From NCBI GenBank assembly GCA_003697085.1, contig RFFU01000124.1:1-10173 (forward strand): a stretch of DNA of 10,173 nt, written 5' to 3'. The DNA comes from Candidatus Hydrogenedentota bacterium. Its GTDB lineage: Bacteria; UBA8481; J006. Below the pieces are notes generated by a model. The model had not been told where the DNA came from. It saw only the letters and a list, made by a program, of their open reading frames with translations, and searched no databases. The stretch's first letter is position 1. The number at the start of each line of letters is the position of its first letter. Position numbers and translations under genes: made by a program. Of the stretch, positions 1 through 9,880 are shown piece by piece.

Positions 1-424
1 CTCCCGCAGGCGCCCGAAACCGAAAGACATACCCGCCGCTCGTTCGTCCTCCTCCCGCGGCCGCCCCCGCGGCTCCCGCCGCAGAAACCGACGCCGTCGC
101 GCGCGCCGCTCCCCCCGCTGTCACCTTCGCCACCGAGTTCTGACCCCCGTATCCGTCGTCCGCCTTCGCCGGATTATCCGGATCCACCACCCAGTCCGTT
201 CCGTTCACCACGTACTTGTACTGGTACTCCCCCGGCGCCAAATTCACCTCCGCTTCCCAGACTCCGTCTCCGTCCGCATCGCTCATCGGCGTCGCGTTCA
301 TATCCCAGTTGTTGAAACTGCCCGCCACGGAGACGCTCCGCGCTCCCGCAGGCGCCCGAAACCGAAAGACATACCCGCCGCTCGTTCGTCCTCCTCCCGC
401 GGCCGCCCCCGCGGCTCCCGCCGC
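1..424. repeat. 342-bp period direct repeat inside the CBM48 gene
   Basis: Positions 1-82 are identical, base for base, to 343-424, giving a period of 342 bp (114 codons). The identical block encodes the Ala/Gly linker and the start of the next domain (motif TSGGYVFRFRAPAG). The match breaks at position 83 of the first copy. The first domain of the protein (nearer 823) is more diverged. The array may continue to the left of the window. Confidence 0.9.
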
Positions 425-823
425 CGAAGCCGACGCCGCGCTCGTGGAAGCCTCGATGGCGATAACGGAATTCTCTCCTCCGAATCCATCCTCGATCTTT
501 CTCGGGTTTTCCGGATCCGTCTTCCAATCGATCTCGTTGACGACGAATTTATATTGATATTCGCCTGGAGGAAGATCGATCAAAACGGTCCAGACGCCGT
601 CGCCGTCGGGGTCGGACAGCGGATTCGCGAAAGCATCCCAGTTGTTGAAACTCCCTGCCACGGAGACACTCTTGGTGCCCGACGGTGCCTGAAAGCGGAA
701 TTCGTGAACCGTCGCGCGCGCGGAGTTGGTTCCGGAAAGGAGCAGTGTTCCAAAAAAAGAAAACATCAAAGCGAAAAACAGGGGGGTCGAACGCCGGACG
801 TCTTGCAAGGAACGGGCTTTCAT
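1..823 (-). CDS. Secreted tandem CBM48/AMPK-type glycogen-binding-like domain protein (3' end outside window)
   Basis: The reading frame stays open from an ATG at 823 to the window edge (274 codons visible). The start is supported by an AGAGGTGAT Shine-Dalgarno about 7 nt upstream; an ATG at 830 opens a different frame that does not give this protein. Residues 1-36 look like a signal peptide: basic start, hydrophobic stretch 14-30, possible cleavage after SARA. Two domains follow, at about 38-124 and 149-235, each with the family pattern VSVAGSFNNWD, DGDGVW, PGEYQYK(F/Y)VVN, W..DP.NP and a closing GG.NSV. A third starts near residue 265. Linkers are rich in Ala, Gly and Ser. Domains of this type bind alpha-glucans in debranching enzymes and AMPK beta subunits; no catalytic domain is visible here. 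It is probably exported and may bind a polysaccharide or act as a scaffold. The substrate is unknown, and the missing C-terminus could carry an enzyme. Confidence 0.85.
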   Translation of the reverse strand, partial: MKARSLQDVRRSTPLFFALMFSFFGTLLLSGTNSARATVHEFRFQAPSGTKSVSVAGSFNNWDAFANPLSDPDGDGVWTVLIDLPPGEYQYKFVVNEIDWKTDPENPRKIEDGFGGENSVIAIEASTSAASASAAGAAGAAAGGGRTSGGYVFRFRAPAGARSVSVAGSFNNWDMNATPMSDADGDGVWEAEVNLAPGEYQYKYVVNGTDWVVDPDNPAKADDGYGGQNSVAKVTAGGAARATASVSAAGAAGAAAGGGRTSGGYVFRFRAPAG

Positions 824-1241: not shown

Positions 1242-1269
1242 TTGAAACGCCGAACGTCCTCTTCATAAT
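1242..1269 (+). promoter_or_regulatory. Sigma70-type promoter for the DUF4956-CotH-VTC operon
   Basis: TTGAAA (1242-1247, 5 of 6 to the -35 consensus) is followed after 16 nt by CATAAT (1264-1269, 5 of 6 to the -10 consensus). The predicted transcription start is about 1276, only some 9 nt before the ATG at 1285. The leader would be too short for a normal Shine-Dalgarno, and none is seen, which fits a short-leader or near-leaderless mRNA. Confidence 0.6.
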
Positions 1270-1284: not shown

Positions 1285-1956
1285 ATGTCGAAATACCTTC
1301 CGGGAAATATCGCCATCACCTTGCCGGACCTCGTGCTCGGGATTCTCCTGGCGACGCTGGCCGCCTCGATCGCCGCTCTCCTCTATCGGGCCACGCACCG
1401 CGGCCTCTCCTACGAACCGGGCTTCGCTTCCGGCCTCGTTCTGGTCGCCCCGATCGTCTCCGTCATAATGATGCTGATCGGAAGCAGTCTCGCGCTCTCC
1501 TTGGGTATGGTCGGCGCCCTCTCGATCATCCGGTTCCGCACCGCCATCAAGGACACCCGCGATATGATCTTCCTCTTCTGGACGATCGCCATCGGGCTCT
1601 CGGCCGGCACCTACAACTGGAAGGTCACGATCGTCTCGACGGCCCTGCTCGCCTCCATCATCCTCGTCGTGGAGGCCTTGCAACGGACAGGCCGCCCCTC
1701 CCGCGACTATGTCCTGATACTGCGCGGAACCGGCGCGCCGCCCCTCGACGCTCTCTCCGCTTCCCTGCGGGAACACGGCCGCCGTTCCAACATCCGCTCC
1801 GTCGATACCTCGGACGATTCCTGGGAAGTCGCCGTCGAACTCGGACTCGAACCGGCCTCGGTGGAAACCCTCCAAACGCTCCTCCAAGCGTTGCGCGCCC
1901 TCCCGAACACCGAAACCGTTTCCGCCGTCGCACCGCAAGCCTCCCTTCCGTTTTGA
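1285..1956 (+). CDS. DUF4956 family membrane protein
   Basis: The protein is 223 residues. The diagnostic DUF4956 region is at about 74-108: GMVGALSIIRFRTAIKDTRD followed by a hydrophobic stretch ending AIGLSAG. Likely membrane segments are 12-33, 48-72, 94-109 and 113-130. Residues 139-219 form a soluble C-terminal domain with alternating beta/alpha character that could be ACT- or ferredoxin-like. The loop with Arg83, Arg85, Lys89 and Arg92 between helices recalls the conserved core of MgtC/SapB proteins; this similarity is my inference. The family has no established biochemical function, and it often sits beside VTC-domain and CotH genes, as here. The ATG has no Shine-Dalgarno but has a promoter just upstream. 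The stop overlaps the CotH start (TTGA), so the two are probably translationally coupled. A role as transport or membrane partner of the VTC protein is plausible but unproven. Confidence 0.9.
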   Translation: MSKYLPGNIAITLPDLVLGILLATLAASIAALLYRATHRGLSYEPGFASGLVLVAPIVSVIMMLIGSSLALSLGMVGALSIIRFRTAIKDTRDMIFLFWTIAIGLSAGTYNWKVTIVSTALLASIILVVEALQRTGRPSRDYVLILRGTGAPPLDALSASLREHGRRSNIRSVDTSDDSWEVAVELGLEPASVETLQTLLQALRALPNTETVSAVAPQASLPF

Positions 1957-4697
1957 ACGGCAACAGCACGAACCAGAAAGACCGGACCGGTTCCGAAGCC
2001 GGAACGGTCCAGGGGACCGATCCCCAGTCGCGCCGGCTGCGAAGACGACTCCTTCTGGCGTTTATCTTCGCCCTCGTTCTCCTCGTTGCCATAATGCTCA
2101 TCAAAATGCAGTTTCTTTCTCCGGGTCTCTCGATGCGCGACGCGTGGGAAGCGGAGTGGGCGGGTTCCCGCACGGTCCAGGAGTTTTCCGAGGCCTACCG
2201 CCAACTCCCCCTCTACGAACTCCGGATCGCCCCGGAATACTGGCGCCGAATCGAAGCCTTCGGGCGGAGAAAACTGGCCGCGAACGAGTACCTGATGCGG
2301 AACGAAGAGAAGGTCTGGTACCCGGCTAAGTTCCTTTTCGATGGGAAACTCTACCGCTGCGATGTCCGACTCCACGGCGACGTCGCGAACCATTGGGCCT
2401 TCACCAAGAAATCCTGGGCGGTCCGCTTCAAGAAGGACCGGCCGTTTCCGGCCGTCAAGCGGATGAACCTCGTTCTCCCCTCGGACAAGGAATGGGAAGG
2501 GGAAATCGTTTTGAGCAAAGTAGGACGGGAGATGGGCGTGTTGACCTACCCGATGCGTTTCGTCCGCCTGCGCATCAATGGAGTCGATTACGGCGTGATG
2601 ATCCGCTCCGATCGTCTCAATGACAAGGTCCTCGAACTGGCCCGGCACCCCCCCGGCGTGATCTTCAAGGTGGACAACCTCTGGACCCTGACGCATTTCA
2701 CGGGATTCGGTATGTATCAGTACGCCAATTACGTCCCCGAGTTGCCGCTTCGTCTTCCCCTCTACGAATCGGCCTATACCACGGATGATGCCGGAGAGAG
2801 CCGGCCCCGCGAAGCGACCGCGCGGTGGAACGCCTTCCTGCGCCTCGTCCGGGAAGCCTCGGACGAGGAGTTCGAGAAACAGATCCCGCTCTACCTGGAT
2901 ATCGAAAAATTCCTCCGCTGGAACGCCCTCACCTGGCTCTTCGGATCCTACCACTCCCACGAACCGGACAATCTGCGCTGGTACTTCAACTCGGCCACCG
3001 GCCTTTTCGAGCCGATCCTCTACGACGTCGATTCCAAGGAGATCGACAATCTCTTTTCGGGTTCTTTCGAGATCAAGGAGTTCGAACCCGTCTCGCTCCG
3101 CCTGATGCGCATCACGGAATACCGCGAACGACGCAACGCGATTCTTTGGAGGCTTGTCAACGATCCACACTTCGACATCGTTGCGCGTCGAAAAGAAATC
3201 TACAACCGGCTACGAACGGCCTTCCTTTCGGGCGCCGGGGCGCCACGCTGGAGTTTTATGAAAGCCGAGCACGACTCGGCATTCCGTATCCTCAACACCA
3301 ACCGGAAACGCCTCCGCGGCCATCTCGCCTATTCGGCACTCTTCGTCAGCCCGACCATCTCCTCCGCGCCTTCTTCCGCCGAAAAAGAAACGCCCACGCT
3401 TCTCACGTTCGAAGCCCTCATCGACGGCCTTTCGCCTGTCCGCATCGATTCGATCACCCTCACGATCGCGCCCGAAAGCATACTTCCGGACACGGGAGAT
3501 CTCTCCCTTGCGAGCGGTACCGGACGGGAAACGACTTCCATTCCCTTCCGAACCCGGATAACGCAGCGAAGGATCGACTTTCTTCCCGAGAATCTCATCC
3601 TCCACGCGCGCGTTCTGAAGGATCTTCGCCCGGCCCCAAATGCGCGGCGTATCCTGCTCGTCCTCCCCCCGGGACTTCGTTTGCCGACCCCGGAATCGCT
3701 GGATGGCCGGCCTATGATTTCCGTCGCCGCAACGAATTTCCTGACGAAACGACCCCTTTCGAACGGCCACGTCTTCGTCTCCCCGCCCGCGATCCCGGAT
3801 CCCGATTACGCTCCGCCGGTTCCGCTGGACCGGCTCTTGCCGCTGCGGTCCGATACCGGTTCGCTGATTCTGCCGCGGGGCGACTATTCCGTGACCCGCA
3901 ACGCCTATCTCCCGCCGGGACCCCGGCTCGTCATCGAGGCTGGAACCCGGTTGCGCCTCGGCCCCGATATCAACCTCGTCTCCTACGCGCCCGTGTCCGT
4001 TCTGGGAACGAAGGAACACCCCGTCCATTTCGAACCGCTGGTGCCGAACCGCCCCTGGGGAAGTTTCGTCATCGTCGATGCTCCGGAAACGAACGTCTTT
4101 CGGTATGCCGTTTTCTCGAACGGAGGCGGCCGAGGCGAAAACTACGTGAACGGTCTCCGAAGCACCGCGATGCTCTTCAGCGCCCAATCCGATCTTACGA
4201 TGGACCACTGCCGGATCGAAGGAGCGGTTTCCGATGACGGGCTCAACGTCAAGAACGCCGCCGCGAAGATCACCGGCACGCAGTTCTCGAACAACGCCTC
4301 GGACGGCTTCGACGGCGACTGGGTCCGAACCGCCGTGACGGATTGCCGGTTCGATGGAAACGGCGGCGATGCGCTCGACCTCGCCGGCTCCAACGCCCTC
4401 GTCCGGTCCTCCGTCTTCGCTTCGTCCGGAGACAAGGGCATCAGCGCGGGGGAAAGTTCGATCGTCTCGATCACCGAATGCACTTTTCGAGACAACGCGA
4501 TCGGCATCGCCTCGAAGGACCGTTCGCGCGTCACCGCGGAGCAGAGCCGGTTCCTGGCCAACGGGACGGCTCTGGCGGCCTATCAGAAGAAGAAGATCTT
4601 CGGTCCCGGATGGATGGAAACCCGTTCGTGCGTTTTTGAGGAAAACGGAAAGGACGCGGACGCGAAACCGGGCTCCACGATACAAATCCTGCCGTGA
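1953..4697 (+). CDS. Membrane-anchored CotH-type kinase fused to a right-handed beta-helix
   Basis: The protein is 914 residues. It starts at a TTG that overlaps the previous stop by 4 nt; no in-frame ATG exists before the membrane segment, so TTG is preferred. A basic stretch (RRLRRR, 27-32) and one hydrophobic helix (33-50) indicate an N-in anchor with the rest outside the cytoplasm. The CotH-like domain spans about 85-460: KKSWAVRFKKDRPF (152-165), MNLVLPSD (171-178), LRINGVDYGV (206-215), DN at 339-340 and YDVDS (357-361). By analogy with Bacillus CotH, an atypical kinase of spore-coat proteins, D339 may be catalytic and D358/D360 metal-binding. A beta-rich linker (about 480-640) leads to a parallel beta-helix (about 650-914), with rungs such as DHCRIEG, TGTQFSNNASDG, TDCRFDGNGGDA and TECTFRDNAIG. 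Its length is well above that of stand-alone CotH. Substrate and phosphate donor are unknown; the beta-helix may bind a polysaccharide or surface partner. Confidence 0.9.
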   Translation: MNGNSTNQKDRTGSEAGTVQGTDPQSRRLRRRLLLAFIFALVLLVAIMLIKMQFLSPGLSMRDAWEAEWAGSRTVQEFSEAYRQLPLYELRIAPEYWRRIEAFGRRKLAANEYLMRNEEKVWYPAKFLFDGKLYRCDVRLHGDVANHWAFTKKSWAVRFKKDRPFPAVKRMNLVLPSDKEWEGEIVLSKVGREMGVLTYPMRFVRLRINGVDYGVMIRSDRLNDKVLELARHPPGVIFKVDNLWTLTHFTGFGMYQYANYVPELPLRLPLYESAYTTDDAGESRPREATARWNAFLRLVREASDEEFEKQIPLYLDIEKFLRWNALTWLFGSYHSHEPDNLRWYFNSATGLFEPILYDVDSKEIDNLFSGSFEIKEFEPVSLRLMRITEYRERRNAILWRLVNDPHFDIVARRKEIYNRLRTAFLSGAGAPRWSFMKAEHDSAFRILNTNRKRLRGHLAYSALFVSPTISSAPSSAEKETPTLLTFEALIDGLSPVRIDSITLTIAPESILPDTGDLSLASGTGRETTSIPFRTRITQRRIDFLPENLILHARVLKDLRPAPNARRILLVLPPGLRLPTPESLDGRPMISVAATNFLTKRPLSNGHVFVSPPAIPDPDYAPPVPLDRLLPLRSDTGSLILPRGDYSVTRNAYLPPGPRLVIEAGTRLRLGPDINLVSYAPVSVLGTKEHPVHFEPLVPNRPWGSFVIVDAPETNVFRYAVFSNGGGRGENYVNGLRSTAMLFSAQSDLTMDHCRIEGAVSDDGLNVKNAAAKITGTQFSNNASDGFDGDWVRTAVTDCRFDGNGGDALDLAGSNALVRSSVFASSGDKGISAGESSIVSITECTFRDNAIGIASKDRSRVTAEQSRFLANGTALAAYQKKKIFGPGWMETRSCVFEENGKDADAKPGSTIQILP

Positions 4698-5419
4698 TGA
4701 CGACCACGGTTTCCGCGGACCGTTCGGTGCGGACAGCGCCCCCGCGGCTCGAGTACAAGTACCTCCTTTCTCCGCGCCAGGCTCTCCTCGTCAAGAATGC
4801 CCTCCTCTCCATCTGCCGTCGGGATCCTCATTCGCGCTCCGAGGCTTACCGTGTGGTCTCCACCTATTTCGACACGCCCCACCTCACGGAATACGTCTCG
4901 AAACTCGAGGGACTCGGCACGCGATCCAAGTGGCGGATCCGGACCTACCCATCCTCTCCCGATTCTCCCGTGCTTCTCGAAGCGAAACGAAAGCGCGGGA
5001 CCCTCTACTTCAAGGAGTCGTACCCTTTGGCCCCGCGCCTGGTTGATTCTCTTTCGGAAGGGCGTTTCCCCGAAACGGCACCGGAATGGTTCCAGTCGTT
5101 CCTGACCCTGCTCCGAACGAGCCCGCTCGTTCCGACCGTCGTCATCTCCTATCGCCGCGAAGCCTTCTTTCTCCGGGACGACCCCGCGTGCCGGTTCAGT
5201 TTCGATCGGAAGATCGCGGCGCAATACACGAGGCGGCTTTTCGAGGAGTCCGTCCATCCGCGGCGGCCCCTCCATCCAGGGCATATCGTCTTCGAATGCA
5301 AATTGAAGCGGTCCCGGGCGGATCTCGCCCACCGGCTCGTAAAGGAATTCGCGCTCCCGGCCATCGCGCACAGCAAATACTTCTACGGAGTCACCGCCAC
5401 GAATCCGTACTTGCTTTAA
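4697..5419 (+). CDS. VTC-domain protein (polyphosphate polymerase-like, CYTH/TTM superfamily)
   Basis: The protein is 240 residues, a stand-alone VTC domain with no SPX or membrane segment, so probably cytosolic. The start is ATG 4697, sharing one base with the CotH stop (TGATG); a GTG at 4694 adding one residue is equally possible. Tunnel-type motifs appear in family order: RLEYKYLL (E19, K21), STYFDT (55-60), KWRIRTY (R80, R82), LLEAKRKR (E95, K97), ISYRREAF (R153), RFSFDRKI (R166, D170), FECKLK (E200, K202) and SKYFYG (226-231). These correspond to the basic and acidic residues lining the tunnel of yeast Vtc4, which makes polyphosphate from ATP, so the catalytic set looks complete. Activity of bacterial members is mostly inferred from the yeast enzyme. 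It is the last gene of the DUF4956-CotH-VTC operon and may make a phosphate polymer handled by the two membrane partners. Confidence 0.92.
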   Translation: MTTTVSADRSVRTAPPRLEYKYLLSPRQALLVKNALLSICRRDPHSRSEAYRVVSTYFDTPHLTEYVSKLEGLGTRSKWRIRTYPSSPDSPVLLEAKRKRGTLYFKESYPLAPRLVDSLSEGRFPETAPEWFQSFLTLLRTSPLVPTVVISYRREAFFLRDDPACRFSFDRKIAAQYTRRLFEESVHPRRPLHPGHIVFECKLKRSRADLAHRLVKEFALPAIAHSKYFYGVTATNPYLL

Positions 5420-5725
5420 AAGATGAATCATCTCAATGTCGCCTTAAATAGACACCGACCATAGAATCTCCCAAAAAGAAAAAAGGATAACCTCTGACAT
5501 TCGTTTTCGCTCCATGAGCGTCTTTTTCCGGATCTTCGTCTTTTCGGTAATGGTGTCACGGTGTCAGCCATTCGCTACTCTGTAATGTCTTCTTCTGGAC
5601 GGCATGTCTCGTATTCTTCCAGTATCACAACGCGGTAATTTCCGGAAATAGACCTTTCTATCCCCGCTGTTTCTCCTATTCCCTTCTTGACAGCAGAACC
5701 AAACATCGGCATTCTTCACTCAACC
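5420..5725 (+). other. Intergenic region, 306 bp, between VTC and ABC ATPase genes
   Basis: No coding region is supported. Base composition is clearly more AT-rich than the neighbouring genes. Visible items are a 13-bp palindrome AGATGAATCATCT (5421-5433) right after the VTC stop, and a direct repeat GGTGTCA at 5552-5558 and 5560-5566 that could be a regulator site. A promoter-like sequence lies at the right end. No hairpin followed by a T-run was found, so I see no clear terminator for the upstream operon. Confidence 0.6.
5687..5715 (+). promoter_or_regulatory. Candidate promoter for the ABC ATPase gene
   Basis: A perfect -35 box TTGACA (5687-5692) is followed after 17 nt by CATTCT (5710-5715), a weak -10 (3 of 6). 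The predicted start near 5722 is about 4 nt before the ATG at 5726, so the mRNA would be nearly leaderless. That agrees with the absence of a Shine-Dalgarno. The first base of the -35 could also be read as a TTG start codon adding 13 residues, which I reject. Confidence 0.4.
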
Positions 5726-6835
5726 ATGGCGGAAATACAACTCAAGCAGGTCAGGAAGGTTTATCCCAACGGCTTCGTCGGTGTGCACGGCGCCGACCTG
5801 GATATCTCCTCGGGAGAATTCTGCGTGATCGTCGGACCGTCCGGAAGCGGAAAGTCCACGCTCTTGCGGATGGTTGCCGGTCTCGAGGATATCACGTCGG
5901 GGGATCTCTATATCGCCGGACGACGGGTCAACGATGTTCCCCCCAAAGATCGGGACATTGCAATGGTCTTCCAGAACTACGCGCTCTACCCTCATATGAA
6001 TGTTTACGACAATATGGCTTTCGGACTCCGCCTCCGCGGGCTCTCCGAAGATGAAATCGATAAGCGTGTCCGAGAAGCGTCCGAATTCCTCCAACTCGCG
6101 CATCTCCTCGATCGAAAACCGAAAACCCTCTCCGGAGGCCAACGCCAACGCGTCGCCGTCGGCCGCTCGATTGTGCGGAAACCGAAGGCCTTTCTCTTCG
6201 ACGAACCCCTCTCGAATCTCGACGCGAAATTGCGTGTCGAGATGCGGGCGGAACTGGCGCGACTCCACCGGCGCCTAAGCGCCACAAGCCTCTACGTCAC
6301 TCACGACCAAGTCGAAGCCATGACGCTGGCGGACCGGATCGTCGTGATGAAGGACGGCCACGTTCAACAGGTCGGCCCGCCGCTCGAACTCTACGCCCAG
6401 CCGGCCAATCGCTTCGTGGCCGGATTTATCGGTTCTCCCGCGATGAATTTCATCGACTGCACGCTGGAAGAACGCGGGGAGTCGCTGGTCGTCGTCAATG
6501 GAGATTTCCTCGCCCGCTTGACTCCGGAACACGCCGATGCCGTTCGCTCCGCCAAAAATTCCGATCGACGTGTTGTCTTCGGTATCCGGCCGGAACATAT
6601 TCACGATAAACTCTTTCTCCCGGATGCCCCCGCCGACCAGACCATCTCGGCACTGGTCGATGTCGTGGAGCCGATGGGAGCCGAGACGTATGCCTATGTC
6701 CGCGTCGGAGAAGCCCTCTTCACGGTTCGATTGCGGGGAGACGCGCTTCCGAAGGTTGGAACGCAGATCGATCTTGTCCTCGATATGGCCCGGGCCTATC
6801 TCTTCGATCACGAGACCGGAACCAGGATCGCCTGA
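5726..6835 (+). CDS. ABC transporter ATP-binding protein, MalK/UgpC/MsmK type
   Basis: The protein is 369 residues, the usual length for sugar-importer ATPases of the CUT1 group. Motifs: Walker A GPSGSGKST (37-45), Q-loop Q83, signature LSGGQ (135-139), Walker B AFLFDE (155-160), D-loop SNLD (163-166) and switch His193 in THDQ. The stretch FVAGFIGSPAMNF (230-242) marks the change to the C-terminal regulatory TOBE/OB region, which contains GIRPEH, typical of MalK-like proteins. The protein hydrolyses ATP on the cytoplasmic side of an importer for sugars, oligosaccharides or glycerol-phosphate; the substrate cannot be read from the ATPase. No permease or binding-protein gene is in the window, so it may serve transporters encoded elsewhere, as shared MsmX/MsmK-type ATPases do. 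ATG 5726 is chosen because family proteins begin a few residues before the first strand; no Shine-Dalgarno is visible. Confidence 0.95.
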   Translation: MAEIQLKQVRKVYPNGFVGVHGADLDISSGEFCVIVGPSGSGKSTLLRMVAGLEDITSGDLYIAGRRVNDVPPKDRDIAMVFQNYALYPHMNVYDNMAFGLRLRGLSEDEIDKRVREASEFLQLAHLLDRKPKTLSGGQRQRVAVGRSIVRKPKAFLFDEPLSNLDAKLRVEMRAELARLHRRLSATSLYVTHDQVEAMTLADRIVVMKDGHVQQVGPPLELYAQPANRFVAGFIGSPAMNFIDCTLEERGESLVVVNGDFLARLTPEHADAVRSAKNSDRRVVFGIRPEHIHDKLFLPDAPADQTISALVDVVEPMGAETYAYVRVGEALFTVRLRGDALPKVGTQIDLVLDMARAYLFDHETGTRIA

Positions 6836-6950: not shown

Positions 6951-8420
6951 ATGGCGCCCGTGCTTTCCTATCTGGAGCGGGTTTTCGATTTCTCCGGCGA
7001 ACGCGTTCGGTTTCGGTCCCCCGGCGCGGAAGCCTTCACGCTCATTCTATTGATGCTTCTGGCATTCCTTCTGCTTTTTCTCGGAGTCGCACTCGGAGTG
7101 GATATGGCCCCCTTCCCGCGTCTTCTCGTCCCCTTCCTTGCGGTCGCCACGCTCGTTCCCGCCGTCGCCTTCTTCTGGGGAACGCCCGCCGGCATGGCCG
7201 TTGCAATTTTCCAGGGGGTCATCACCCTCTTCCTCTCCATTATCTGGCTCCGGTCCGCTTCCACGACCGGCTGGTTCTTTCTTCTGACGCTGGCTCTGTG
7301 CGAAACAGCATTACGGATCGGCGCCGCAAGGGAATTCTTGGACGGAGACCTCTACAGTCACCTCGTCAAGTACACCGATCTGATCGAAGAGAAGAACGAA
7401 ATCGAGACGAACATCGCCTCGTTGGAGACACGGATCGGCGCGACACGCGAGCGGGGAGAACGCCTCCTCAAACTCATTCACTCGACCTCGCGCCTCGAGG
7501 AAAAACTCTCGCCGCGCCAGGTCGCTGAGGAACTCGCGCGCCAGGTTCGTGGGATTCTCGGGAGAGGCCGGTGTCTGATTTATCGCTTTATCGGAAAAGG
7601 GGGCGATCTCTTGGCTTCCTATCCCCCGCTTCCCGAGGAATTCTCGCCCTTCGGCGACGACTTCAATCCCCTGATCGCTCAACGTCGCGAAAACATCTTC
7701 CTCTCCGATGTCGCCAAGGCCTATCACATTCATCCCGTCGCTCCCCAGGAACGCCCCTTCCGAACACTTTTGATGACACCCTTGAGCGCGGGGTACGAGG
7801 TGTGGGGTGTTTTGAGGGTCGAGGATGAGGAGCCGACGGCGTTTGATCGCGAGGACCTGATGACGCTTTCCGCCCTCTCCGTTCCCGGCGCTCTCATCCT
7901 TCAAAACGCCGAACTCTTTTCCCAGATTGAAAAACTCGCCCTGATCGACGGTTTGACCGGTACGTTCCGGAGGCACCATTTCGAGGAACGACTTCGCGCG
8001 GAACTGGCACGCGCCCGCCGGGAACAAGGCACCCTCTCTCTCGTTTTGATCGACCTCGATCGCTTTAAATCGATCAACGATACCTTCGGTCACCTCGAAG
8101 GAGATCGCGTCCTCAAAACCGTCGGGAAAATCTTGAATGAAAACGTCTCCTCACCCGGCCTCGTCGCGCGTTATGGGGGAGAAGAGTTCGTACTCCTCCT
8201 CCCCGGAATCTCCAAGGAATCCGCCGCGGCCGCAACCGATGCAATCCGAAAGAAACTGGAAGCGATTCCTTTCCCGGAATTCAACCGCTCCATCACCTTT
8301 TCCGCCGGGGTGGCGTCGTTTCCCGCGGATGGAGCAACACTTGAAACCCTCACGAACACCGCCGACCAGGCACTCTATAAGGCGAAAAGCGCGGGCCGGA
8401 ATCGCGTCGTGACGGCATGA
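6951..8420 (+). CDS. Membrane-bound diguanylate cyclase with GAF-like and GGDEF domains (I-site lost)
   Basis: The protein is 489 residues. It has four likely membrane helices (about 28-50, 56-77, 79-100, 106-124), a coiled coil (about 139-176), a GAF-like sensor domain (about 180-322) and a C-terminal GGDEF domain (about 328-489). The domain looks active: LTG (335-337), metal-binding D368 in LIDLDRFK, IND (375-377) and the A-site GGEEF (409-413). It should make c-di-GMP from two GTP. The inhibitory I-site RxxD, expected five residues before the A-site, reads SPG-type residues (S400 and G403 in the R and D positions), so product feedback is probably absent. ATG 6951 is chosen because the open frame further upstream only overlaps the ABC gene out of frame; GGGGGT just upstream may act as Shine-Dalgarno. 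The stop overlaps the next start (ATGA), implying coupled translation with the second cyclase. Confidence 0.93.
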   Translation: MAPVLSYLERVFDFSGERVRFRSPGAEAFTLILLMLLAFLLLFLGVALGVDMAPFPRLLVPFLAVATLVPAVAFFWGTPAGMAVAIFQGVITLFLSIIWLRSASTTGWFFLLTLALCETALRIGAAREFLDGDLYSHLVKYTDLIEEKNEIETNIASLETRIGATRERGERLLKLIHSTSRLEEKLSPRQVAEELARQVRGILGRGRCLIYRFIGKGGDLLASYPPLPEEFSPFGDDFNPLIAQRRENIFLSDVAKAYHIHPVAPQERPFRTLLMTPLSAGYEVWGVLRVEDEEPTAFDREDLMTLSALSVPGALILQNAELFSQIEKLALIDGLTGTFRRHHFEERLRAELARARREQGTLSLVLIDLDRFKSINDTFGHLEGDRVLKTVGKILNENVSSPGLVARYGGEEFVLLLPGISKESAAAATDAIRKKLEAIPFPEFNRSITFSAGVASFPADGATLETLTNTADQALYKAKSAGRNRVVTA

Positions 8421-9880
8421 AAAACGAATCCCGGCTCATCCCCTTCCCCGCAACCTTCCTTCTCCTTGCCGTCGCCTGCCTCGCCGCCTACGGCATGCTC
8501 CACCGTGCCAACTTTCTCCTGGTCGGAACGGTTCTTCTCATCGTCGCGGTGATCCCTCTTCCCGCCGTGGAACGGATCCCCTGGTACCTTACCCTCACCG
8601 CCGTCGCGATCGGAAGCGCGCTCGTCCATACGATTCTCTCTTCCCGGACCGGAGCGGCACTGCTTCTTTTCACCGCCGGCGCCCTCGGAAGTCGCGGCTT
8701 GCTCCACGGCGCCCGCCGCGAAATTCTCGCCCGCTTCGAAGAACGATTTGATACCCTCCGAAAGGAGGTGCGCCGCCTGCGCGCGCTCCGCGAGAAGAAA
8801 GAAAACGAATGGAATGAGGCTCAATCCTTTCTCGATGAAATCCATACGCAGTTCCAGGCCGTTCGATTCATCGGAACTTCGCTTCGTTTCGAGGAAACGT
8901 GGAACGAAATCAGTCGGGGGGCCCTGCGGCTCTTCGGCTCCGAACCGCTCCTCCACCTGCCGCGGATCGCCGAGAATATACCGGAAGGATATTATCCTCC
9001 GCGGAATCTCGTCTCTTCTTCCTCTCTCGGACGAGCGCCGCTCTTTCCTGATGATCTCGTCGGCCCCGAAGAAGGGTTCGCCGATACCACAGCCGCGATC
9101 TATTGGGAAAAGGCCTCGCGCGGAGAACCGGTTCGGATCCGCCTCGGTCGCGAACACTTCGCCGCCTGGATTCCCTTTACACTGGGGAACGGGAAGCGAG
9201 TCGTCGTCCACATCGTGGGACGGCGCGAGGAATTCCTTGGACAAGGTGGTCATAAACGCGAAGAAAACACTTTTTCGGAAACCCGCCTCGAGCACCTTAA
9301 GGCCAACGCACTCGAAATCTTCGTCAATCAAGTGGGACAATCCCTCGAAAAACTCCGCCTTTACGAATTGGCGGTCTCCCAATCGCGCACGGACCTTATG
9401 ACCGGCTTGCCGCATCACGCTCGCTTCGAAACGATCCTCTCCGAAGAGATGTCTCGTGCCCGCGACGCCGGCAAGCCGCTTTCCCTGCTCATCTGCGACA
9501 TCGATCGCTTCAAACGCATCAACGATACCTACGGCCATCTCGCCGGAGACGCCGTCATCGTTCACATCGCCAGGCTCCTGAGAAATCGCGTCCGAATCTC
9601 CGACACGGTGGCCCGCTACGGCGGAGAAGAATTCGTCGTCATCCTTCCCGGAACCCCGGTTTCCGGAGCCAATGAGATCGCCGAACGGATTCGTGAAATG
9701 ATTGAAGCGACGCCGGCCGGCGTGCACGGTCCCACGGGCGAAGTCTCCGTTCCGCTGACCATATCCATCGGAGGCACGGAACTGAACGACGGCGACTCGC
9801 TCGCGGATTTGATCGAACGGGCCGATCAGGCGCTCTACAGCGCCAAACGCGGCGGCCGAAACCGGGTCGTAATCAAATGA
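8417..9880 (+). CDS. Membrane-bound diguanylate cyclase, GGDEF domain with intact I-site
   Basis: The protein is 487 residues and starts at an ATG overlapping the previous stop by 4 nt. Four hydrophobic segments (about 10-28, 32-50, 56-74, 78-96) are followed by a coiled coil (about 103-148). A middle region (about 150-318) has the size of a GAF-like sensor but no motif I can name. The C-terminal GGDEF domain (about 320-487) has LMTGLP, metal-binding D361/D363 in CDIDRFK, IND (368-370) and GGEEF (402-406). RISD (393-396) sits five residues before the A-site, so the product-inhibition site is present. It should synthesise c-di-GMP with feedback control. It shares overall architecture with its upstream neighbour, which suggests an old duplication, but the sensor parts have diverged strongly and probably read different inputs. 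No EAL or HD-GYP phosphodiesterase is nearby. Confidence 0.93.
   Translation: MKNESRLIPFPATFLLLAVACLAAYGMLHRANFLLVGTVLLIVAVIPLPAVERIPWYLTLTAVAIGSALVHTILSSRTGAALLLFTAGALGSRGLLHGARREILARFEERFDTLRKEVRRLRALREKKENEWNEAQSFLDEIHTQFQAVRFIGTSLRFEETWNEISRGALRLFGSEPLLHLPRIAENIPEGYYPPRNLVSSSSLGRAPLFPDDLVGPEEGFADTTAAIYWEKASRGEPVRIRLGREHFAAWIPFTLGNGKRVVVHIVGRREEFLGQGGHKREENTFSETRLEHLKANALEIFVNQVGQSLEKLRLYELAVSQSRTDLMTGLPHHARFETILSEEMSRARDAGKPLSLLICDIDRFKRINDTYGHLAGDAVIVHIARLLRNRVRISDTVARYGGEEFVVILPGTPVSGANEIAERIREMIEATPAGVHGPTGEVSVPLTISIGGTELNDGDSLADLIERADQALYSAKRGGRNRVVIK

Follow-up and report, generated by a model that had tools for sequence, protein, structure and literature searches.

What do three overlapping genes for a DUF4956 membrane protein, a CotH-like protein and a VTC-type domain do together? 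The question is raised by positions 1285-5419 of the window, by which we mean the whole of contig C20 (10,173 bases), from a draft genome of 3.2 Mb with a completeness of 94.6%. According to the open reading frame list and Pfam, the three genes are consecutive and co-oriented on the plus strand, and they and the sequence immediately upstream are laid out as follows:

1242..1269, plus strand: promoter-like site TTGAAA-16-CATAAT ahead of the DUF4956 gene (2 such sites counted against 2.0 expected by shuffling)
1285..1956, plus strand: DUF4956 (PF16316) protein, 223 amino acids (Pfam 63 bits, cut-off 30.6)
1953..4697, plus strand: CotH-like/beta-helix protein, 914 amino acids, TTG start (Pfam CotH 66 bits, Beta_helix 84 bits)
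4694..5419, plus strand: VTC (PF09359) protein, 240 or 241 amino acids (Pfam 106.9 bits, cut-off 23, profile positions 2-233 of 235)

The reading frames, both junctions and family matches above the cut-offs bear out the overlapping three-gene arrangement described by the first-pass annotation. The DUF4956 and CotH-like genes share the 4 nt TTGA, with the TTG start lying inside the DUF4956 stop region, and the CotH-like and VTC genes meet at GTGATG, which gives an overlap of 4 nt if VTC begins at GTG 4694 or of 1 nt if it begins at ATG 4697. The TTG start of the CotH-like gene is required, because the next in-frame ATG would truncate the predicted membrane anchor (residues 24-54). The ‘one good promoter’ of the annotation did not hold up, as the TTGAAA-16-CATAAT site occurs at chance level and leaves an almost zero leader before DUF4956. 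Around the trio the window has a carbohydrate flavour: neighbouring genes code for a CBM48 protein, the ATPase of a sugar ABC transporter and two GGDEF proteins. The first of these (2-823, minus strand) is a secreted protein with repeated CBM48/AMPK1-CBM glycogen-binding modules and Ala/Gly-rich linkers that runs off the contig end; the ATPase (5687-6835) is of the UgpC/MalK type and has no adjoining permease or binding-protein genes; and the consecutive membrane GGDEF genes (6951-8420 and 8417-9880), both with an intact GGEEF, lie just downstream of the trio.

That these three families recur together in bacteria had been put forward in the annotation, and the distribution of the families confirms it. 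Among 290 genomes drawn across bacteria, DUF4956 occurs in 36, VTC in 28 and CotH in 41; of the genomes with VTC, 27 also have DUF4956 (p about 2e-28, with an odds ratio near 730) and 24 have CotH (p 2e-19), where the odds ratio and the p-values exclude the window’s own genome. About one in ten sampled bacterial genomes thus has a VTC-type domain, and nearly all of these also have the MgtC relative DUF4956. The sole VTC genome without DUF4956 (G116) is best explained by an assembly break, because its VTC gene stands directly after a contig end at which a beta-helix gene is truncated by its final 62 profile positions. At the level of loci, a random pattern of neighbours was looked for and the opposite was found: when 80 loci were fetched by DUF4956 only, 74 had VTC on the same strand at a distance of at most 400 bp and 69 had CotH no more than 3 kb away, so that the arrangement is not due to chance. 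These loci were found with a three-sequence DUF4956 profile and over-represent the window-like branch and Clostridia, and the 290-genome sample gives the less biased family counts. DUF4956 also adjoins VTC in all five plasmid records with a VTC match. Among the control genomes, Corynebacterium glutamicum is a species with all three families.

The joint function of the trio had been described as not defined, which is true only in part. The three genes have been published as the accessory genes cotH-PPP-DUF4956(-DUF4832) of Gram-positive pelDEADAFG clusters (PMC7112168), and mutants of its homologues in S. intermedius (SIR_1592-1594) have phenotypes: deletion of the DUF4956 or the CotH homologue changes the amount of Pel and, in one medium, lowers aggregation by more than half, with the two mutants shifting Pel in opposite directions, and the VTC mutant has no phenotype under the conditions used (PMC12345266). 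The only experimental data on the trio are those from these mutants. The same study states that the three-gene arrangement is not found outside the Pel locus (PMC12345266). This fails in general, because PelG, which occurs in 9 of the 290 genomes, is present in only 1 of the 28 VTC genomes, there on another contig; nor was PelG found in the window’s genome (94.6% complete). A Pel accessory module as the whole story is therefore rejected, and our data correct the published claim: the trio is mostly found outside Pel loci, often beside other glycan genes. What the window shares with the Gram-positive Pel accessory genes is the same families side by side (a membrane MgtC/ACT protein, a VTC-type protein and a secreted CotH protein) and a link to exopolysaccharide. 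It differs from them in its gene order (DUF4956-CotH-VTC), in the lack of PelG in its genome, and in a CotH-like protein that is without the catalytic Asp and has an AlgG-like beta-helix where the Pel-linked one has an FN3 domain.

The VTC-type domain has long been known as a eukaryotic polyphosphate polymerase. A PDB search with the single VTC sequence of the window returned no convincing relative, whereas a family profile built from 26 relatives found yeast Vtc4 at E 1.8e-20, followed by Vtc2/Vtc3 as the next closest solved relatives. The domain is complete, as had been claimed. All 13 tunnel or catalytic residues of Vtc4 that we examined (K200, R264, R266, E279, K281, K294, R361, R373, D377, E426, K428, S457 and K458) are kept in the window, as K21, R80, R82, E95, K97, K106, R154, R166, D170, E200, K202, S226 and K227 (numbered from ATG 4697), and nearly all of them are invariant in the 26 relatives. 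Since 13 of 13 residues are kept, including R264, R266 and E426, the catalytic residues that were altered to obtain an inactive yeast enzyme (PMC9911596), the window VTC is likely an active tunnel enzyme. Conservation of these residues does not by itself prove the product, which we infer to be polyphosphate. Alternatively, the protein could be a different kind of triphosphate-tunnel enzyme, such as a triphosphatase or a phosphotransferase acting on a glycan precursor; tunnel enzymes share residues across different reactions, the name polymerase derives from homology only, and the constant glycan neighbourhoods described below could mean a glycan-related substrate. We consider this unlikely, given that Vtc4, and after it Vtc2/Vtc3, come closest among the solved structures and that every Vtc4 residue examined is kept. 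A second tunnel-type protein (CYTH, a weak match) directly follows the trio on a Parcubacteria contig (L026:3029-4165).

The constant neighbour of this enzyme, DUF4956, has two parts that matter for what follows:

1531..1563, plus strand: RFRTAxKDxxD loop, residues 83-93, between helices 3 and 4 (48-sequence alignment; helix limits from the model)
1702..1929, plus strand: ACT-like C-terminal domain, residues 140-215 (structure search with the model)

PDB searches with the single DUF4956 sequence and with a DUF4956 profile gave no convincing relative. A profile-profile comparison by hhalign of 48 DUF4956 with 16 MgtC proteins, however, gave a probability of 98.2 and an E of 3.7e-14 over 204 columns, and the Pfam MgtC HMM matches the DUF4956 protein of genome G034 at E 1.6e-6 (positions 2-115 of 121). 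The window’s own protein reaches 14.3 bits on this HMM, under the gathering cut-off of 31.4. Judged by these profiles, DUF4956 is a remote MgtC homologue, to be placed outside PF02308 because it scores below the cut-off. The structural model (pLDDT 87) predicts helices at 13-37, 45-65, 67-86, 91-108 and 112-135, followed by a beta-alpha-beta-beta-alpha-beta domain that matches the MgtC C-terminal domains 7qa5 and 2lqj with Z 10.1 over 86-87 residues, other ACT-like folds scoring equally; the listed structure matches all concern this domain and not the membrane part. An MgtC membrane domain and an ACT domain have already been assigned to SIR_1592, the S. intermedius DUF4956 homologue (PMC12345266), so that our assignment is independent support and not new. 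Within the loop, R83, F84, R85, K89 and D93 are invariant in 48 sequences. Both the loop and the ACT-like domain are predicted to be cytosolic, the side of the loop following from five helices with the ACT-like domain placed inside. DUF4956 thus resembles the MgtC/SapB family in its profile, over the 204 aligned columns, and in its architecture of five helices and an ACT-like domain, and differs from it in falling below the Pfam MgtC cut-off, in being tied to VTC and in having the RFRTAxKD loop where the MgtC motif would be. The earlier suggestion that DUF4956 is the membrane partner of VTC is in good agreement with the five predicted helices and with the constancy of VTC as its neighbour (27/28 genomes, 74/80 loci).

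The relationship to MgtC also suggests a looser association, in which DUF4956 would be an MgtC-like sensor or regulator, the polyphosphate made by VTC would stay in the cytosol as a phosphate or energy buffer, and the CotH-like protein would answer the same signal independently. Salmonella MgtC acts on PhoR and on the F1Fo ATP synthase (PMC6658541), the opposite shifts in Pel of the S. intermedius DUF4956 and CotH homologue mutants (PMC12345266) would fit independent responses, and the window’s genome is without PPK1, so VTC could be its polyphosphate source. We nevertheless regard this arrangement as doubtful: VTC and DUF4956 are nearly inseparable neighbours, which suggests a direct partnership, and VTC and PPK1 are distributed independently in the 290 genomes (8/28 vs 70/262, p 0.82). 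The same independence led us to reject VTC as a general replacement for PPK1. The window’s phylum is represented by two genomes in the comparison; the window’s genome (G000) has VTC and no PPK1, and its sister from the same order (G001) has PPK1 and no VTC.

The CotH-like protein was annotated as an outward-facing kinase that could use an exported phosphate donor, and the following features bear on this claim:

2022..2114, plus strand: N-terminal membrane anchor, residues 24-54 (predicted helix; sequence RRLRRRLLLAFIFALVLLVAIMLI)
2193..3437, plus strand: CotH kinase-like fold, residues 81-495 (5jda, Z 27.7 over 336 residues, 21% identity; phmmer E 1.8e-10)
2952..2954, plus strand: codon of His334, at the position of the catalytic Asp228 of B. 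subtilis CotH (alignment with CotH proteins)
3771..4694, plus strand: right-handed beta-helix, residues 607-914 (AlgG 4ozz, Z 28.6 over 274 residues, rmsd 2.1; Pfam Beta_helix 84 bits)

The N-terminus is Arg-rich before the anchor (RRLRRRLLLAFIFALVLLVAIMLI), and the remainder of the protein is predicted to lie outside the cytoplasm. In the model (built on 6 sequences, mean pLDDT 72), the fold of the Bacillus CotH kinase (5jd9/5jda) is recognizable over 336 residues, and the window protein keeps its Asn as N340 and its metal Asp as D358 (the position of B. subtilis Asp251). Unlike the Bacillus kinase, it has a membrane anchor that places it outside, an additional beta-helix, and His334 in place of Asp228, a residue required for B. 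subtilis CotH activity (PMC7821199). The substitution is not peculiar to the window. Across 12 beta-helix-type CotH proteins from widely different genomes this position is His in nine, Glu in two and Gln in one, and Asp in none, while among the 68 remaining CotH proteins in the alignment it is Asp in 63; the length of the loop varies and the exact Asp228 column is arguable. The beta-helix-type proteins of L120 and L121 have no acidic residue anywhere in that loop. In two others (L122:5751-8333 and L129:3275-5710) both the catalytic and the metal Asp are lost and the beta-helix charges are kept, and these are likely fully degenerate kinase folds. Most clostridial CotH partners retain the catalytic Asp, and the kinase question may therefore differ between branches.

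On these grounds the annotated kinase role is not supported for the window’s protein. In its full form the proposal is that VTC makes polyphosphate, DUF4956 exports it and a CotH kinase outside the cell takes phosphate from it to modify substrates on the surface. Its topology fits, the VTC tunnel is intact, the basic loop of DUF4956 is invariant, and the yeast VTC complex passes polyphosphate via a basic membrane channel (PMC9911596). The catalytic Asp is, however, absent from the window’s kinase-like domain and from its whole subfamily, and MgtC relatives are known as regulators, not as polyphosphate channels. We know of no kinase that uses polyphosphate outside the cell in this way, and judge the proposal very unlikely. 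That the kinase-like half of the window’s protein does not work as a CotH-type kinase is instead part of the overall reading given below, and we hold it with the same evenly balanced confidence. For the beta-helix CotH subfamily, annotation as kinase is unwarranted without a test.

The strongest invariant positions of the protein lie in the C-terminal beta-helix, which is absent from the first-pass annotation. D762, D784, D787, D789, D806, D809, D827, K828, E834 and D856 do not vary among the 11 beta-helix sequences compared, whereas the kinase half of the same 11 conserves mainly Gly, Ser, Arg and Asn, which are mostly structural. The concentration of about ten invariant charged positions in the beta-helix suggests that this is the working part of the CotH-like protein. 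Its fold is that of AlgG, the periplasmic alginate epimerase (274 residues, rmsd 2.1), but with 11% identity and its own set of invariant charged residues, and the fold is unspecific, many polysaccharide enzymes scoring Z 23 or more. A scan of the translation found no DPH motif in residues 607-914, and by that mark the beta-helix is not an AlgG epimerase. Strong full-length matches to the window-type beta-helix occur only in VTC genomes, partly by construction, since 7 of the 8 built the profile. One genome has a second beta-helix/CotH-like gene (G173:C62:4398-5285) and its only VTC on another contig.

The neighbours of the trio in other genomes point to surface glycans. In Clostridia the usual order is [GGDEF] VTC-DUF4956-CotH, a 700-aa protein with no Pfam match, HEAT, a GT2 glycosyltransferase and [GGDEF/EAL]. 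Beta-helix-type trios adjoin GT4/GT2, DegT and mutase-like genes (L120), a Bac_transf sugar transferase (L127), a Wzx-type flippase (L033), a nucleotidyltransferase (L016) or an ABC exporter (L011). Taking these neighbourhoods together with the co-occurrence of the families, the remote MgtC homology, the conserved tunnel, the changed kinase site, the invariant charges of the beta-helix and the S. intermedius DUF4956 and CotH mutants, we favour the view that the three proteins form a membrane module with a supporting role in building or finishing a surface glycan, to which we give a probability of about 50%. Against it stand the lack of any glycan-synthesis gene in the window (the whole contig, 10,173 bases), the S. 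intermedius VTC mutant without phenotype, the Asp kept by most clostridial CotH partners, a CotH model built on 6 sequences and the missing DPH motif of the beta-helix. Inside the cell, the Vtc4-type triphosphate-tunnel enzyme VTC would polymerise or transfer phosphate from a nucleoside triphosphate while sitting on DUF4956, which would anchor and regulate it, with a predicted cytosolic ACT-like domain and an invariant basic loop turned towards VTC. On the outer side, the CotH-like/beta-helix protein, tethered by a single membrane anchor, would bind or modify the glycan through its AlgG-like beta-helix. The docking of VTC on DUF4956, the topology of the module and any export are likewise inferred. 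If VTC does work on DUF4956, then MgtC-family proteins would gain a natural enzymatic partner, and bacteria a membrane-coupled route to polyphosphate besides PPK.

A bolder version of the surface-glycan module would make it a bacterial counterpart of the yeast VTC machine, the MgtC-family protein serving as dock or channel for the VTC polymerase and polyphosphate or phosphate units being exported for a surface glycan that is handled by a new, His-substituted CotH and AlgG-like beta-helix enzyme. Like the yeast complex (Vtc1/Vtc3/Vtc4), the bacterial trio has a Vtc4-type tunnel with the same active-site residues and a constant membrane partner with conserved basic residues; unlike it, the bacterial VTC has no SPX domain, the partner is an MgtC-family protein and not of the Vtc1 type, and activity and channel are putative. 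We view this version as quite unlikely.

Several further genes accompany the trio. GGDEF/EAL genes flank it in Clostridia, as GGDEF genes adjoin it in the window. The protein of about 716 aa without a Pfam match that lies between CotH and HEAT in the clostridial clusters (L068:12191-14482) belongs to a cluster found in 30 loci. Another protein without a Pfam match, of about 355 aa, precedes VTC-DUF4956 in L042, L053 and L054 and DUF4956 alone in L006, these loci coming from Bacteroidota, Ignavibacteria and Zixibacteria.
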